Source of the DNA: Candidatus Zixiibacteriota bacterium
GTDB lineage: Bacteria; Zixibacteria; MSB-5A5; GN15; PGXB01
DNA: 15,617 nucleotides
Reading direction: 5' to 3'
Assembly (NCBI GenBank): GCA_024230695.1
Contig: JAAERC010000877.1
Coordinates: 1-15,617 of the forward strand
The notes beneath the pieces were generated by a model. The model ran no database searches and was not told the DNA's origin. It saw only the letters and a list, made by a program, of their open reading frames with translations. Shown one piece after another: positions 2,667-15,521 of the stretch (its first letter is position 1; the number at the start of each line of letters is the position of its first letter). The position numbers and the translations under genes were made by a program.

Positions 2667-4889
2667 CTATTCAGATTTTAATAGTCGTAATGAATTTGAG
2701 ATAACAAATATCGATGAAAACGCCATTGTTGCCGCCGCCACAACCGGCGAGAGGCTCCACCCAAAAACCGGATAAAACAAACCGGATGCTACCGGAATCG
2801 CGATAACATTATATGCAAACGCCCAAAATAGATTCTGTTTGATTATTCGATAAGTCATACTGGATATTTTGAAAGCCTCCGTCAGCGAATCAAGATTATC
2901 TCGAACCAAAATAATATCAGCCGATTCAATCGCCACATCGGTCCCGCTACCCAAAGCAACACCAATATCAGCCGAGGCCAGCGCTGGGGCATCATTGATA
3001 CCATCGCCGACCATCATAACATTATACCCGGCCCGGCGATATGTCTCAACGATTATTGCCTTTTGATCCGGTTTGACTCCGGCTTCAAATCGGCCAACTG
3101 TTAGTGTTTTGGCAACTCCTTTAGCTGTCAAATAATTATCTCCGGTCAGAATTACAACATTACGACCAGTCTGATTGATTTCATTTAAAACCTGTGGTGC
3201 CTCATCTCTGATTTTATCTGACAACGCCAGAAATCCAATTACCCGATTATCAATCGCCACATAAACAATCGTATGACCCTTTTCCATTTCATCGCCGGCT
3301 TTTTTGGTCAACATTTTTATATCAATCTTTTCTTTTTCCATCGTAGCTTTATTGCCGACCAATACCATACTGTTTCTTACTTTAGCCTGAAGTCCAAACC
3401 CGGGAAATTCGGTCAGATCAGATTCAGGAAAAAGTTCTATTTCCATCTGTTTGGCTTTATCAATAATACTTCGAGCCAAAGGATGCGTCGAACCAGATTC
3501 AGCCGATGCGGCCAGTTGGATCATTTTTCTCTCAACTTTATCTTCTTCATCTTTTTCGCTGATTGTTTCTACAGCGACGACTTCAAAATTACCTTCGGTC
3601 AAAGTTCCGGTCTTGTCGAAGACTACATAATCAACCTTCACAACATTTTCTAAAATATCTCCGCCACGAATATAGATCCCTCTTCGGGCCGCCCACCCGG
3701 TTCCGGTAAGTATCGCCGTTGGAGTTGCCAAACCAAGCGCGCAGGGACAGGCAATAATAAGAACCGCCACCGGTGCCGTCAAAAGCATGGAACTTTGCGG
3801 ATCGATTAAAAACCAAATACCAAATGTTAGTATAGAGACAAGAATCACAACCGGTACAAAAATGCCAGCGATTTTATCAGCAAGCCTTTGAACCGGCGCT
3901 TTACGGTTTTGGGCTTCTGAAACTAATCTTACCACACCACTCAAAAATGTATCTTCACCGGTTTTATTTACTTTGAATTTAAATGAGCTGTTTCCATTGA
4001 CTGAACCGCCAATAATTTCGTCATCTATCTGTTTTTCGACCGGGACCGATTCGCCGGTGATCATAGATTCATCAACCGCCGGTTCCCCCTCTATTATCAA
4101 ACCATCGGCAGGTACCTTTTCACCCGGTTTAACAAATAAAATCATCCCGACTTCGATTGCGGAGATATCTATTTCAATTTTTTCATCCTTTATTATCGCA
4201 ATCGCTTTTTCCGGGCGAAGTCTGAGTAAGGCTCCAATGGCATCGCGAGCTTTAGTTTTGGCACGGCTCTCAAGAAATCGACCGAGTAAAATCAAAGTTA
4301 TAATCATCGCCGATGTCTCATAATAGAAAAAGTCGGATATTTCACTTGATGATATCAATGACTCAATTGTGATCCAAACACTAAAAAGAAAGGCCGATAA
4401 TGAACCCAGCGCGATAAGTGAATTCATATTGGCCCGCCAGCGTTTCAATTGCTTGAAAGCGTCGACAAAAATAGTTCGACCCGGAAACAGAAAAACGGGT
4501 AGAGTCAGGAAAAATAAAATTAAACCGGTTGTTGGTTTATCAAATGGCAGAGCCAATGATAATATATCTTTCATACTGATTACAGCAATCGGGATAGTTA
4601 AGGCCAGGGATAATAAAAAACTGTTTTTGGCTTCAACATGCTCGCTTTTATTATCTAAATCTTCAGAATTGTTTATTTCGGCTTTAAAACCAAGATCACC
4701 GATTTTGTCAATTATTTGTTTTTCATCTGTTTGATTACTAAAATATTCAACAGCGGATGTGGATGTTGCGAAATTTACAATTACCTTCTCAACTCCATCA
4801 AGTTTTGAAAGGTCCTTTTCAATACCCATTGCGCAACCCGCACAATGCATACCTGATATGTTTAGATTGATCTCTTTTGTTTTGGCCAT
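2667..4889 (-). CDS. copA: Cu(I)-exporting P1B-type ATPase
   Basis: This is an inner-membrane pump that couples ATP hydrolysis to export of Cu(I) from the cytoplasm. The 740 residues hold, in order: one N-terminal heavy-metal-associated domain with G-M-H-C-A-G-C (Cys16, Cys19); membrane helices; the actuator T-G-E-S (278-281); the Cys381-Pro382-Cys383 metal site; the phosphorylation motif D-K-T-G-T-L-T with Asp425; the His469-Pro470 nucleotide-binding pair typical of P1B pumps; the hinge G-D-G-I-N-D (628-633); and two last helices with Tyr693-Asn694 and Met722-x-x-Ser725-Ser726. CPC plus YN plus MxxSS is the P1B-1 copper(I) signature rather than Zn/Cd. Length is normal and no catalytic residue is missing. 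The ATG at 4889 lacks a clear ribosome binding site. No copper regulator or CopZ chaperone is adjacent; the gene 98 nt upstream encodes an ECF sigma factor. Confidence 0.96.
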   Translation of the reverse strand: MAKTKEINLNISGMHCAGCAMGIEKDLSKLDGVEKVIVNFATSTSAVEYFSNQTDEKQIIDKIGDLGFKAEINNSEDLDNKSEHVEAKNSFLLSLALTIPIAVISMKDILSLALPFDKPTTGLILFFLTLPVFLFPGRTIFVDAFKQLKRWRANMNSLIALGSLSAFLFSVWITIESLISSSEISDFFYYETSAMIITLILLGRFLESRAKTKARDAIGALLRLRPEKAIAIIKDEKIEIDISAIEVGMILFVKPGEKVPADGLIIEGEPAVDESMITGESVPVEKQIDDEIIGGSVNGNSSFKFKVNKTGEDTFLSGVVRLVSEAQNRKAPVQRLADKIAGIFVPVVILVSILTFGIWFLIDPQSSMLLTAPVAVLIIACPCALGLATPTAILTGTGWAARRGIYIRGGDILENVVKVDYVVFDKTGTLTEGNFEVVAVETISEKDEEDKVERKMIQLAASAESGSTHPLARSIIDKAKQMEIELFPESDLTEFPGFGLQAKVRNSMVLVGNKATMEKEKIDIKMLTKKAGDEMEKGHTIVYVAIDNRVIGFLALSDKIRDEAPQVLNEINQTGRNVVILTGDNYLTAKGVAKTLTVGRFEAGVKPDQKAIIVETYRRAGYNVMMVGDGINDAPALASADIGVALGSGTDVAIESADIILVRDNLDSLTEAFKISSMTYRIIKQNLFWAFAYNVIAIPVASGLFYPVFGWSLSPVVAAATMAFSSIFVISNSLRLLKSE

Positions 4890-11373: not shown

Positions 11374-11853
11374 ATGTATTTTTCTAATGAAAAGGTCATT
11401 GATGTTGATACTGGAGAAATAAGAGTATCTAACGAATCAGTTATTTTGCAGAGTGTTGCACTTGGCTCATGTATCGCACTGGCCGTTTATGATAGAACCA
11501 AAAAAATCGGCGGTTTGGCTCACATCATGTTACCCGGAAAATCCCCATCCTCTAAGAATAATACTAAATATGCCGAAGATTCTATTGAAGCTTTACTTGA
11601 GTGGATGAATAAATTGGGGGCCACAAAAAAAAATTTGGAGATAAGTATTGTCGGCGGGGCAAACGTTCTTCAAGAAGGGGATATTCCTGACAAAGTAATA
11701 AAATCTGTTTTGGATTATTTGAATAAATTAAATTTAAAAATAAATTCTAAAAGAATTGGCGGCATTAAAAGGCGGAGTTTGTATTTTAATACCGAAACGG
11801 GTGATGTTCATTATACCGAAGGTGATGATTCTAAGAAAATATTGCTGATATAA
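11374..11853 (+). CDS. cheD: CheD-family chemoreceptor glutamine deamidase
   Basis: CheD proteins convert specific receptor glutamines to glutamate and so reset chemoreceptor sensitivity. The 159 residues show the family core: A-L-G-S-C-I-A-L with catalytic Cys33, G-G-L-A-H-I-M-L-P with His50, K-Y-A-E-D-S-I-E-A-L-L, I-V-G-G-A-N, and G-G-I-K-R-R-S-L-Y-F-N-T-x-T-G. By analogy with Thermotoga CheD (Cys27, His44, Thr21, from memory), Cys and His are kept and the Thr position six before Cys is Ser27, a mild change. The frame opens with TTG at 11371, but ATG 11374 is the more natural start; the ribosome site is weak. The usual partners (chemoreceptor, CheC, CheA, CheW) are absent. Instead a multi-PAS hybrid kinase begins 32 nt downstream in the same transcript, and its first linker is full of CheD-like target motifs. 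Family is near certain; the target is inference. Confidence 0.94.
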   Translation: MYFSNEKVIDVDTGEIRVSNESVILQSVALGSCIALAVYDRTKKIGGLAHIMLPGKSPSSKNNTKYAEDSIEALLEWMNKLGATKKNLEISIVGGANVLQEGDIPDKVIKSVLDYLNKLNLKINSKRIGGIKRRSLYFNTETGDVHYTEGDDSKKILLI

Positions 11854-11885
11854 ATTGAGGGAATAGAAATACCAAGGCTGATCAA

Positions 11886-14800
11886 ATGAAAAAAGAAAAC
11901 GATAAATTCACTGATAAAGAGAAAAAACAGCTAATACACCAATTAGGCGAACGGGTCAAAGAACTTAACTGTTTATATGGGATTTCACATCTAATTGAAA
12001 AAGATAATACTTCGTTGGAAGATATTCTTAATAGCACCTGTAATATTATTAAAGAGTCTTGGCAGTTTCCGGATGATACCTGCGTAAGGATTGTTGTTGA
12101 TGGAAATAAATATAAGACATCCAATTTTAAAACGACAAAATGGAAACAAGTAGCCCAAATAAAGTCTAAAAAAGAGAGTTTTGGTCAAATTGAGGTTTAC
12201 TATTTAAAAAGCAAACCAAAATCAGATGAAGGACCATTTTTAAAGGAAGAGCGTAATTTAATTGAAGCGGTTGCCGAAAGACTTGGTAAAATCATCATAC
12301 GATATAGGACTGAAGAGGAGTTAAGAGCCTACAACCAACAATTGCAGGCCAGCGATCAACAGTTCAAAGCATCCAACCAGCAACTGCAAGCCAGCGAACA
12401 ACAACTAAAAGCCTCGAATCAGCAACTTCAAGCGAGTGGGCAACAGCTAAAATCCTCCAACCAACAACTTCAGGCCAGCGAGGAAAATTATAGATCGACA
12501 ATAGATGATCTGCCGGTTGGTGTTGTTGTTCATAATAGTGATTCATCTATTTTGCTAAGTAATCCAGAATCCTCAAAAATTCTCGGACTATCAGCCGAAC
12601 AGATGATGGGAAAAGAAGCTATCGATCCGTCTTGGTGTTTTGTGCATGAAGACTCCACTAAAATGAAGATCGAGGATTATCCGGTAAGCAAAGTGATCTC
12701 TACTAAAAAACCGATCTATGAATATAATGTTGGTATTAAAGTTCCCAAAAGAGATGGTATCACCTGGGTAATCGTTAACGCAATTCCTATTTTTACCAGT
12801 AATAATGAATTAGACAGAATAATCATAAACTTCATCGATATCACCAAACGCAAACGGGCAGAGGAAGAGTTAAAGGATTCCAAGAGTAAAAGTCATGCCT
12901 GGCTTGAGAATTCACCGGTTTGTACCAAAGTATTGGACCTTGATTTTAATCTGCAATACATGAGCAAAGCCGGAGTAGATGCACTTAAAATCGATGATGT
13001 TACGACCCTCTATGGGAATCCTTATCCGTTTGATTTTTATCCTGACTCATTCAAAATACCAATGACCGCAAATTTGAATAAGGCCAAAGAAACTGGTAAA
13101 ACAATAACGCAGGAAGCCTTTGTAACTGATGTTGAGGGAAACAAGCTGTGGTATCACTCAACCATATTACCGATCAATGATGATAAAGGTCAGCTTGATT
13201 ATATTATGGTTTTGTCCGTTGAAACAACCGATCGCAAACGGGCGGAAGAAAAATTACAGGCAAGCGAAGATAAATACCGCCTGTTAGTCGATAACTCGAC
13301 AGCATCGATTATCTTATTTGATATTGAGGGCAACATTCTTTTTATGAACAAAGCATCAATCAAAATGACTTTTGGTGATGAGTCGGCATCCTATGACGGA
13401 TTATCATTATATGATATTGCTCCAAATCGCGAGAAGGCTGATTTCTTGTTGGAAAGACATCGTAAGATCAAAGAATCCGGTAAGGGTGACGAATTTGAAG
13501 ATGAAATTGTTACACCCGATGGGGCTCACTGGTATAGGTCAAGTATTCAACCGGCTACAAATGCCAACAATGAAGTAATCGGCATTCAAGTGGTTTCTAA
13601 CAACATAACTGAACGCAAACGGGCTGAGAAGGCATTGGAAAAACAACAATACTATCTTACCAAAGCTCAAGAAATAGGCAGTATAGGAACATGGGAGCTT
13701 GATCTAATAAAAAATGTACTTATTTGGACGGATGAGAACTATCGGATTTTTGGGGTGCCACTTGGAACAGAGCTTAATTATGAGATATTCCTTGAGCAAA
13801 TCCATCCTGATGACAGGGAATATGTAAATAAAGAATGGATGGCCGCTACCAAAGGTAAGCCTTATGACATCGAACATAGACTGATAGTCGACGGTAAGGT
13901 CAGATGGGTAAGAGAGAAAGCTGACGTAATATTTGATGATAATGGAAAAGCTATAAGTGCAATAGGTTTCACACAGAATATCACTAAATTCAAAGTTGCT
14001 GAAGCGGCACTAAATAAAAGCAATTCACGATATAAACTTCTTTTTGATAATTTAGATTCCGGTATAAATCTTCTTGATAAAGATGGGAACTTCCTGTTGG
14101 TCAATGAAGTTTCGGCCAATACCTGGGGAAAAAAACCGGAAGACCTTATTAATAAAAATGTCAAAGATGTTTTTCCTCCCGAGTTTGCCAAAAAGGCTTT
14201 GGACACTATTCAAAAAGTAAAGGAAAAAGGTGTCGGTTTCAAACGAGAGCAATTTATTAAATATCTTAATAAACATTTTGTTGAAAATGTTCAACCCGTA
14301 TTTAATGACCAAAACGAATTTTCGGGTGTTCAGGTAGTAACAGTTGATATCACCGAAACCAAACGACTTCAGGAATTGGAATCACGAGCCGAGCGGCTTG
14401 AAATGGCCGGAACGATTGCCGGACAGGTCGCCCATGATTTTAATAATCTTTTAGCACCAATTGTAGCCTACCCCGATTTTATCCGCGATGAGATCGCGTT
14501 TGATAATAAATCCCACACCTACCTTAATTCTATTGAAGCCGCCGGGTTGAAGATCGCCAGTATCAACCAGGATCTTCTCGCGATGGGTCGAAGAGGGCAT
14601 TATACAATGGAAGTGTTGGACCTCAACCAAATAGTTATCCAGACCGCAATGGAGATAGAATCACGAACAAGAACTATTGCACTGGAAAAAGTTCTTTGTG
14701 ATGACTTAATGAAAATAAAAGGCGGAAACGCACAGATTCATCGGATGCTCACTAATTTGCTGGTAAATGCACAGGATGCGATGGCTGATATTGGGCAAAT

Positions 14801-15521
14801 CAGTATCAGAACTGAAAATTACTATGCTGATGATACAGCGATTGCGTTTGGCCGGGTTCCAAAAGGTGAATATGTCAAACTTACCGTTTCCGATAATGGT
14901 TGCGGCATTCCCGATGATATTATTAATAGTATTCTTGATCCTTTCTTTTCAACAAAAAGTGCCGACAAAAAACGCGGTTCCGGCCTTGGATTGAGCGTGG
15001 TTGATGCAGTGATGAAAGATCATAATGGTTATCTTGACCTAAGCAGTAAGATCGGTCAAGGAACATCTTTTTACGCCTATTTTCCTGTGAGTAGAGAGTA
15101 TATTGAAAGTGAGAAATCTGAAAAAATATTGGCCGGTACCGAGAAGATATTGGTTATTGATGATGATTCTGTTCAGCGCGAAGTGACCACGAGGGTTTTG
15201 ATGAAACAGGGATATAAGCTCAGCTCGGTCGAGAGTGGTGAAAAGGCCGTCGAATTTATCCGGGAGAATCCGCAGGATCTAATTGTTTTGGATATGGTTA
15301 TGCCGGGCGGTATTGATGGAGCCGAAACGTATCGACAAATTATTGAAATCTATCCGAATCAAAAGGCTATTATTGTTTCTGGATTTTCCGAATCAGAAAG
15401 AGTTCTCGAGGCTCAAAAAATGGGTGCCGGTGCATTTATAAAAAAACCAGTCACAAAAAATATTATCGCGACTGCTGTCAGAACCGAACTTGACCGACCA
15501 CAAAAAACCCTCCAATCTTGA
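11886..15521 (+). CDS. Soluble hybrid histidine kinase: GAF-like, Q-rich heptad linker, five PAS, HisKA, HATPase, REC
   Basis: A 1211-residue sensor with no signal peptide or membrane helix, hence cytoplasmic. Order: GAF-like domain (about 10-143, V-K-E-L-N-C-L-Y-G-I-S); seven perfect heptads (150-198); PAS1 (about 200-320); PAS2 (337-448); PAS3 (462-575); PAS4, PAS_3-type (592-700, H-P-D-D-R-E); PAS5 (713-823); HisKA with H-D-F-N-N at His850; HATPase with N-box Asn961, D-N-G-C-G (1003-1007), D-P-F-F-S-T-K and G-S-G-L-G-L (1031-1036); REC (about 1086-1203) with Asp1092-1094, phospho-acceptor Asp1136 and Lys1187. Three PAS domains are followed by the usual D/N-I-T-x-R/K-K-R-A-E-type helix. All catalytic residues are present, so autophosphorylation and transfer to the REC are expected. 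There is no DNA-binding output, so phosphate probably moves on to another protein. Ligands are unknown. Operon partner: cheD. Confidence 0.95.
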   Translation: MKKENDKFTDKEKKQLIHQLGERVKELNCLYGISHLIEKDNTSLEDILNSTCNIIKESWQFPDDTCVRIVVDGNKYKTSNFKTTKWKQVAQIKSKKESFGQIEVYYLKSKPKSDEGPFLKEERNLIEAVAERLGKIIIRYRTEEELRAYNQQLQASDQQFKASNQQLQASEQQLKASNQQLQASGQQLKSSNQQLQASEENYRSTIDDLPVGVVVHNSDSSILLSNPESSKILGLSAEQMMGKEAIDPSWCFVHEDSTKMKIEDYPVSKVISTKKPIYEYNVGIKVPKRDGITWVIVNAIPIFTSNNELDRIIINFIDITKRKRAEEELKDSKSKSHAWLENSPVCTKVLDLDFNLQYMSKAGVDALKIDDVTTLYGNPYPFDFYPDSFKIPMTANLNKAKETGKTITQEAFVTDVEGNKLWYHSTILPINDDKGQLDYIMVLSVETTDRKRAEEKLQASEDKYRLLVDNSTASIILFDIEGNILFMNKASIKMTFGDESASYDGLSLYDIAPNREKADFLLERHRKIKESGKGDEFEDEIVTPDGAHWYRSSIQPATNANNEVIGIQVVSNNITERKRAEKALEKQQYYLTKAQEIGSIGTWELDLIKNVLIWTDENYRIFGVPLGTELNYEIFLEQIHPDDREYVNKEWMAATKGKPYDIEHRLIVDGKVRWVREKADVIFDDNGKAISAIGFTQNITKFKVAEAALNKSNSRYKLLFDNLDSGINLLDKDGNFLLVNEVSANTWGKKPEDLINKNVKDVFPPEFAKKALDTIQKVKEKGVGFKREQFIKYLNKHFVENVQPVFNDQNEFSGVQVVTVDITETKRLQELESRAERLEMAGTIAGQVAHDFNNLLAPIVAYPDFIRDEIAFDNKSHTYLNSIEAAGLKIASINQDLLAMGRRGHYTMEVLDLNQIVIQTAMEIESRTRTIALEKVLCDDLMKIKGGNAQIHRMLTNLLVNAQDAMADIGQISIRTENYYADDTAIAFGRVPKGEYVKLTVSDNGCGIPDDIINSILDPFFSTKSADKKRGSGLGLSVVDAVMKDHNGYLDLSSKIGQGTSFYAYFPVSREYIESEKSEKILAGTEKILVIDDDSVQREVTTRVLMKQGYKLSSVESGEKAVEFIRENPQDLIVLDMVMPGGIDGAETYRQIIEIYPNQKAIIVSGFSESERVLEAQKMGAGAFIKKPVTKNIIATAVRTELDRPQKTLQS
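12333..12479 (+). repeat. Seven tandem 21-bp units encoding Q-Q-x-x-A-S heptads in the kinase linker
   Basis: Seven consecutive 7-residue units (residues 150-198). Units 1, 3, 5 and 7 are identical as protein (NQQLQAS); units 2, 4 and 6 are DQQFKAS, EQQLKAS and GQQLKSS, so there is a 14-residue super-period. At DNA level the copies differ at many third positions (Ser as agc, tcc, tcg and agt; Leu as ttg, ctg, cta and ctt), so this is not a fresh slippage product. The pattern predicts a parallel coiled coil with Leu/Phe at d, Asn and polar residues at a, and the Gln pair at exposed b and c positions. Confidence 0.95.

Follow-up and report, generated by a model that had tools for sequence, protein, structure and literature searches.

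A CheD subfamily encoded beside histidine kinases with tandem Gln-Gln heptads: a probable deamidation system acting on kinases

INTRODUCTION

What is the target of a chemotaxis-type deamidase whose neighbour is a histidine kinase? We analyzed a stretch of 15,617 nucleotides from Candidatus Zixiibacteriota bacterium (contig JAAERC010000877.1; hereafter, the window), in which cheD directly precedes a hybrid histidine kinase gene. The known substrates of CheD are chemoreceptors, and no chemoreceptor, cheA, cheW, cheR or cheB gene was found in the 15.6-kb window. The kinase contains a series of tandem heptads, each with a Gln-Gln pair (the QQ array), and the question is whether the neighbouring CheD acts on this array. 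The features concerned are as follows.

11374..11853, + strand: cheD, encoding a deamidase family protein of 159 aa (PF03975; matched to 2f9z by profile and by fold; member of the array-side clade described below)
11886..15521, + strand: hybrid histidine kinase of 1211 aa (PAS families, HATPase_c at residues 949–1069 and Response_reg at residues 1088–1198, by Pfam)
11886..12305, + strand: N-terminal region of the kinase, residues 1–140 (aligned with relatives; no Pfam match)
12336..12482, + strand: seven QQ heptads, residues 151–199, candidate CheD sites (inside a predicted helix, residues 120–206)
15147..15479, + strand: receiver domain of the kinase, residues 1088–1198 (PF00072, E = 2e-22)

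RESULTS

CheD and the QQ array of the window

The CheD of the window matched PF03975 with an E-value of 2.4e-20 (73.1 bits against a curated cut-off of 25), and its AlphaFold model (mean pLDDT, 95.1) found T. maritima CheD, 2f9z_C, as the best structural match (TM scores, 0.86/0.89). The protein nevertheless fell short of all equivalog cut-offs for chemotaxis CheD in NCBIfam, with a best score of 109.2 bits against 240. Catalytic residues were present as Cys33 (codon 11470–11472) and His50 (11521–11523), the equivalents of what we take to be the catalytic Cys27 and His44 of T. maritima CheD. At the position of Thr21, presumably the third catalytic residue of the T. maritima enzyme, the CheD of the window has Ser. 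A plasmid search with this CheD gave only relatives below 60% identity, five of them at 30–31% among the matches listed. A promoter scan gave 5 promoter-like sites against 3.7 expected, and no promoter was assigned. Elsewhere in the window, an Mrr-type restriction endonuclease domain with a zinc ribbon (765–1811) and a heavy-metal P-type ATPase with an N-terminal HMA domain (2667–4889) were observed.

The kinase reading frame starts at 11886, 32 nt past the cheD stop, in agreement with the initial annotation. Along the protein, an unnamed sensor-like N-terminus is followed by the QQ array, several PAS domains, the kinase core and the receiver; Pfam reported no HisKA in this kinase. The earlier description of the array also proved exact to the residue: the first Gln of each pair lies at 151, 158, 165, 172, 179, 186 and 193, the flanks are A148, A155, A162, A169, A176, A183, S190 and A197, and the sixth heptad has Ser in place of Ala. 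All seven heptads fitted the pattern A/S-x-x-Q-Q/E-x-x-A/S, which we take to be that of a chemoreceptor-type adaptation (deamidation) site, as had been claimed. A heptad with a Glu-Glu pair, at residue 144, lies ahead of the seven.

At the nucleotide level, the QQ pairs mix CAA and CAG, six Leu residues are encoded by four codons, and Ser is encoded by both AGY and TCN; Tandem Repeats Finder gave a match of 76% at period 42 and of 70% at period 21. By these measures, it is the amino acids (QQ, Leu, Ala and Ser) that constitute the conserved feature of the array. The synonymous changes rule out a recent, mere tandem duplication of DNA. An AlphaFold single-sequence model of residues 1–329 was poor overall (mean pLDDT, 54.6) and placed the array within one helix, residues 120–206, with block pLDDT values of 85–91 over residues 151–190 and 71 over residues 191–200; the linker carrying the array is thus predicted to be helical.

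The N-terminal region of the kinase (11886–12305), with the motif ERVKELNCLYGISHL ... W.YP and sometimes in multiple copies, is common to many kinases, some chemoreceptors (P0212 and P0225) and PEP/pyruvate-binding proteins (P0144). Judging from this distribution of related sequences, this region, GAF-like according to the initial annotation, is a putative, unnamed sensor domain.

Genes beside cheD in a survey based on CheD similarity

The CheD of the window and 25 aligned relatives were used to scan 84,980 species genomes, and 28 loci were picked without regard to arrays. At 23 of them a QQ array was found in a gene beside cheD; a strict heptad count scored 20 of these arrays as clear and three (L013, L020 and L022) as degenerate. 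As for the other five loci, cheD lay at a contig end in L002, L018 and L023, was a fragment at a contig end in L027, and encoded a canonical-type CheD in L028. In most cases 'beside' means that the array gene comes directly after cheD in the same orientation; one gene intervened in L007 and two in L009, the array gene preceded cheD in L008, and it was convergent to cheD in L012. The loci belong to Zixibacteria, Omnitrophota, Bacteroidota, Planctomycetota, Spirochaetota, Elusimicrobiota and Nitrospirota. Because the intergenic gap was –58 to 104 nt in 17 of the 24 same-strand pairs measured (window included), gene spacing suggests that cheD and the array kinase are likely co-transcribed.

Two loci were laid out differently. 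In L017 (10499–14016), the array, PAS and kinase parts occupied three consecutive open reading frames, with the array in a short protein separate from the kinase gene; in L008 (1312–6020), a HAMP-array-PAS protein preceded cheD and a kinase without an array followed it. These layouts could represent split genes, sequence errors or genuine separate subunits.

Composition of the arrays and variety of the kinases

Arrays beside cheD were 3–17 heptads long, and Gln occupied 95.3% of their Glx positions (224 heptads from 25 proteins); the value for arrays without a near cheD was 94.4% (14 proteins). Beside cheD, heptad position 5 was A, S or T in 96%, and position 7 was N (0.49) or E (0.41), so that Glu was common just one place from the Glx pair.

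The array preceded the phospho-acceptor domain in all 20 proteins in which Pfam named one. This domain was HisKA, or HisKA_3 in L010, L019 and L066, and the sensors of array-side kinases included CHASE (L001, L006 and L065), dCache with HAMP (L007), DUF4118 (L010 and L022) and GAF (L011, L025 and L026). PAS or receiver-first layouts also occurred, and the content of receiver and Hpt domains differed. The CheD clade and the array were constant; the kinases were variable.

A separate clade of array-side CheDs

A tree of 74 CheD rows was constructed, with 14 loci that repeated others omitted; one canonical gene was entered twice (L028 and L077), so that the 39 rows outside the clade described here represent 38 genes. 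One clade of 35 members was obtained (support, 100/99), set apart by a branch of 1.58 changes per column. It consisted of 28 array-side CheDs (25 with clear and 3 with degenerate arrays), 4 CheDs with arrays elsewhere in the genome and 3 at contig ends; among the 28, L063–L065 had been reached by way of their arrays, and the window was the starting point. No QQ array (at least 3 heptads, Gln at least 75%) was detected by the strict heptad count at the 38 loci with non-clade CheDs. Mixed Gln/Glu heptads were detected at 12 of these 38 loci, and all nine such proteins checked were chemoreceptors. The same blind count thus returned the known substrate beside canonical CheDs and a kinase array beside the rest.

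The equivalent of Thr21 was Ser in 25 and Thr in 4 of the 35 clade members, and Thr in 29 of the 39 other rows; in array-side CheDs, Ser could play the same role. The equivalents of Cys27 and His44 were kept in 35/35 clade members. Three residues, N97, V98 and L99, were specific to the clade (97%, 89% and 97%, respectively) and lie in a loop aligned with Ser-Met-Phe of T. maritima CheD.

This loop bears on the possibility that CheD binds the array, with or without modifying it as well; the coiled coil would then mimic the docking site of chemoreceptors, and CheD would be a switching subunit of the kinase. The B. subtilis CheD mutants M101E and F102E were reported to be affected in deamidation or binding, and the interaction of B. 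subtilis CheD with receptors and CheC is reported to matter more than deamidation for chemotaxis (PMC3513319). M101 and F102 may fall within the N97-V98-L99 loop. However, a pure docking site would need neither up to 17 heptads nor Gln in preference to Glu, and the full retention of the catalytic Cys and His also argues against it. We regard this explanation as unlikely and favor deamidation of the array.

Genome samples starting from the arrays

Arrays were also sought directly in samples of single phyla. In Bacteroidota (198 genomes), arrays with at least 60% identity were found in four genomes besides the one at the centre of the sample, and all four possessed cheD, compared with 13 of the 198 overall. 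Their CheDs were encoded 39–84 kb from the array or on another contig, yet belonged to the array-side clade. The co-occurrence of cheD and array in this phylum (P = 8e-6) is an overstatement, given that three of the four genomes are close kin and that two of their CheDs are identical; the other samples alone gave P-values of 0.06, 0.18 and 0.15. In Planctomycetota (246 genomes; cheD in 63), arrays were present in two genomes besides the centre, with cheD next door in both. In the phylum of the Zixibacteria centre (118 genomes; cheD in 26), six genomes had arrays, all adjacent to cheD; five of them were already known from the CheD scan and one was new. In the phylum of G028 (247 genomes), QQ-like arrays were found in G433, G296 and G259 (degenerate), with cheD present, as in 133 of the 247 genomes. 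No cheD lay within ~9 kb of these three QQ-like arrays, and the 4 fetched of the 11 CheDs of these genomes were all of the canonical type (65–76 bits). Some CheD matches in the samples of this phylum and of Planctomycetota lay within open frames of ~450–615 aa, which may represent fusions of CheD with further domains.

Taken together, all ten further array genomes carried cheD; adjacency and membership of the special clade were not always seen. Arrays without a near cheD, and genomes of the G028 phylum in which only canonical CheDs were seen, count against an exclusive pairing.

These samples are relevant to a further explanation, namely that the array serves as a common coiled-coil spacer of PAS proteins and that cheD stands next to it because a single mobile operon was inherited. 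PAS proteins with QQ arrays are indeed numerous (64 of the best 120 matches to the kinase N-terminus), and some are far from any cheD. Against this explanation, arrays are rare (4 of 197 further Bacteroidota and 2 of 245 further Planctomycetota genomes), all of these genomes have cheD, and Glu is nearly absent at both Glx positions; moreover, the neighbours are diverse in their phospho-acceptor families and sensors, and both the place of the array and the order of the genes vary. We consider this explanation improbable. The view of the array as an all-purpose PAS linker is likewise weakened by its rarity and by its pairing with cheD in the genome samples.

Two kinds of cheD within the 28 genomes

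With the window array as a query, 40 array loci were obtained in the 28 genomes at E ≤ 1e-3, and the 32 loci with at least 45% identity were taken as QQ-array loci. A cheD gene was located within 4 kb of 24 of the 32 (binomial test under a uniform model, P = 5e-52); of the eight without one, seven were fetched, and three of these were cut at the upstream end. The initial annotation had suggested looking for an enrichment of cheD near array kinases, and such enrichment was seen in these 24 loci, together with a CheD clade of their own. It had also cautioned that similar coiled coils occur in other kinases. That holds in part: QQ arrays were present in kinases without a near cheD (8 of the 32 loci, and the Bacteroidota sample loci except that of the centre).

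The 28 genomes contained 43 cheD genes, of which 24 had a QQ array within 4 kb, 3 were at contig ends and 16 were of the canonical type. In CheR and MCP searches, no match lay within 10 kb of any of the 24 array-side cheD genes, as far as the contigs reach, whereas CheR or a chemoreceptor lay within 10 kb of 13 of the 16 canonical-type genes. These counts used 39 of 63 CheR rows, those omitted being on contigs without cheD or an array, and 9 MCP rows selected by contig; of the omitted MCP rows, those on the same contig as an array-side cheD lie at distances of 16 kb (G021:C19) and 38 kb (G004:C45) from it. The opposite neighbourhoods indicate that array-side and canonical cheD genes keep different company, often within one genome.

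Among the 28 genomes, nine had no chemoreceptor match and nine had no CheR match above the cut-off. Neither was found above the cut-off in G005, G008, G012, G017, G019, G020 and G025, which all possess an array-side cheD; G008 had one CheR match under the cut-off. In these seven genomes, whose assembly completeness is not stated, a true absence of chemoreceptors and cheR is likely. Although 19 of the 28 genomes had a chemoreceptor match, it is highly improbable that the array-side CheD acts on chemoreceptors encoded at other places in the genome, with the kinase as an unrelated neighbour, given these seven genomes and given that the CheDs on the chemoreceptor or cheR side of the same genomes are different genes outside the clade.

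Glu-Glu arrays in CheB-CheR-PAS fusions

Seven array proteins had 100% Glu and 0% Gln at the Glx positions, values that are partly due to choice since the set was picked by eye as Glu-Glu. Six of them (L067–L071 and L033) contained a CheR domain, five or six also contained CheB (L033 in part), and L032 had a Glu-Glu array without CheR. Five members of this set accounted for five of the eight low-identity array loci of the 28 genomes, and six of these eight loci were within 1 kb of a CheR match. By sequence, the Glu-Glu heptads of these CheB-CheR-PAS fusions have the form that would be expected of methyltransferase targets.

DISCUSSION

The genomic enrichment of cheD beside arrays and the existence of a separate CheD clade make the array a likely CheD substrate. 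We propose that the QQ array is probably what the neighbouring CheD modifies, and that this CheD subfamily acts by deamidation on histidine kinases rather than on chemoreceptors. Points against this proposal are the arrays without a near cheD and their similar Gln content, the prevalence of Ser at the Thr21 position and, for B. subtilis, the reported importance of CheD binding over its enzyme activity (PMC3513319). In the proposed mechanism, CheD would bind the array, located in the coiled coil between the sensor end and the PAS and kinase domains, and turn its Gln residues (up to 14 in the window) into Glu. With each deamidation, this coiled coil, of two or four helices, would become more negative by one charge; its place between sensor and kinase is suggested by the position of the array in the 20 proteins. 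It is established that Glx changes in the adaptation helices of chemoreceptors shift the signalling state; by analogy, the added charges may alter helix packing, move the kinase between states and change its output. In cells without CheR, the change from Gln to Glu would be one-way, and a timer, a memory or a maturation step is therefore as plausible as adaptation.

A broader proposal, to which we would give rather less than even chances, is that tandem Glx heptads form a portable adaptation module inserted between the sensor and the output of many kinds of kinase. The letter would be matched to the enzyme, all-Gln to a dedicated CheD and all-Glu to a fused CheB-CheR. In the absence of CheR, the Gln ladder would then act as a one-way charge counter of the duration or strength of CheD action, reset only by new synthesis.

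To our knowledge, covalent adaptation is known almost solely from chemoreceptors, with RsbM-RsbK as a case of methylation in a kinase. If the proposed deamidation is correct, covalent adaptation would extend by this reaction to ordinary sensor kinases across the seven phyla named above, and the array kinases, which are uncharacterized, would gain a mechanism testable by mass spectrometry. The array would also provide a ladder with countable steps for measuring how the charge of a coiled coil tunes a kinase. In the openly licensed PubMed Central literature, we found neither a description of QQ arrays nor a report of a histidine kinase as a target of CheD. What is new is the CheD version; the modification of a kinase helix is already known as a principle from RsbM-RsbK.

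Comparison with known systems

Array-side CheDs share with the CheDs of B. subtilis and T. maritima the PF03975 family, the fold of 2f9z_C, the catalytic Cys and His, and the association with Glx-pair heptads flanked by small residues. They differ in forming a separate clade, in having mostly Ser at the Thr21 position, and in being encoded beside a histidine kinase instead of cheR, cheC or a chemoreceptor.

The chemoreceptor methylation helices, as seen in 9 chemoreceptors beside canonical cheD, resemble the array in having small residues and pairs of Glx at a spacing of seven; they have 3–6 mixed Gln/Glu heptads with 44% Gln, whereas QQ arrays have 3–17 heptads with 95% Gln. The CheB-CheR-PAS fusions likewise have tandem Glx heptads with the same spacing, Leu at position 3 and A, S or T at position 5, located before PAS, but their pairs are Glu-Glu, and the methylesterase and methyltransferase are fused to them.

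The closest precedent is RsbM-RsbK, with the methylation of the RsbK helix. In B. cereus, the methyltransferase RsbM is encoded with the hybrid kinase RsbK and methylates its signalling helix, according to excerpts of PMC4574943. No CheR-type methyltransferase gene, as would be expected for an RsbK-type arrangement, lies beside the kinase in the window. In the excerpted account, the reaction on RsbK is methylation and not deamidation, and a tandem QQ array goes unmentioned for RsbK (PMC4574943). Common to both pairs is that a chemotaxis-type enzyme is encoded with a hybrid histidine kinase and that a helix before the kinase core is what is acted on, in RsbK according to the same excerpts (PMC4574943) and, as we propose, in the kinase of the window.
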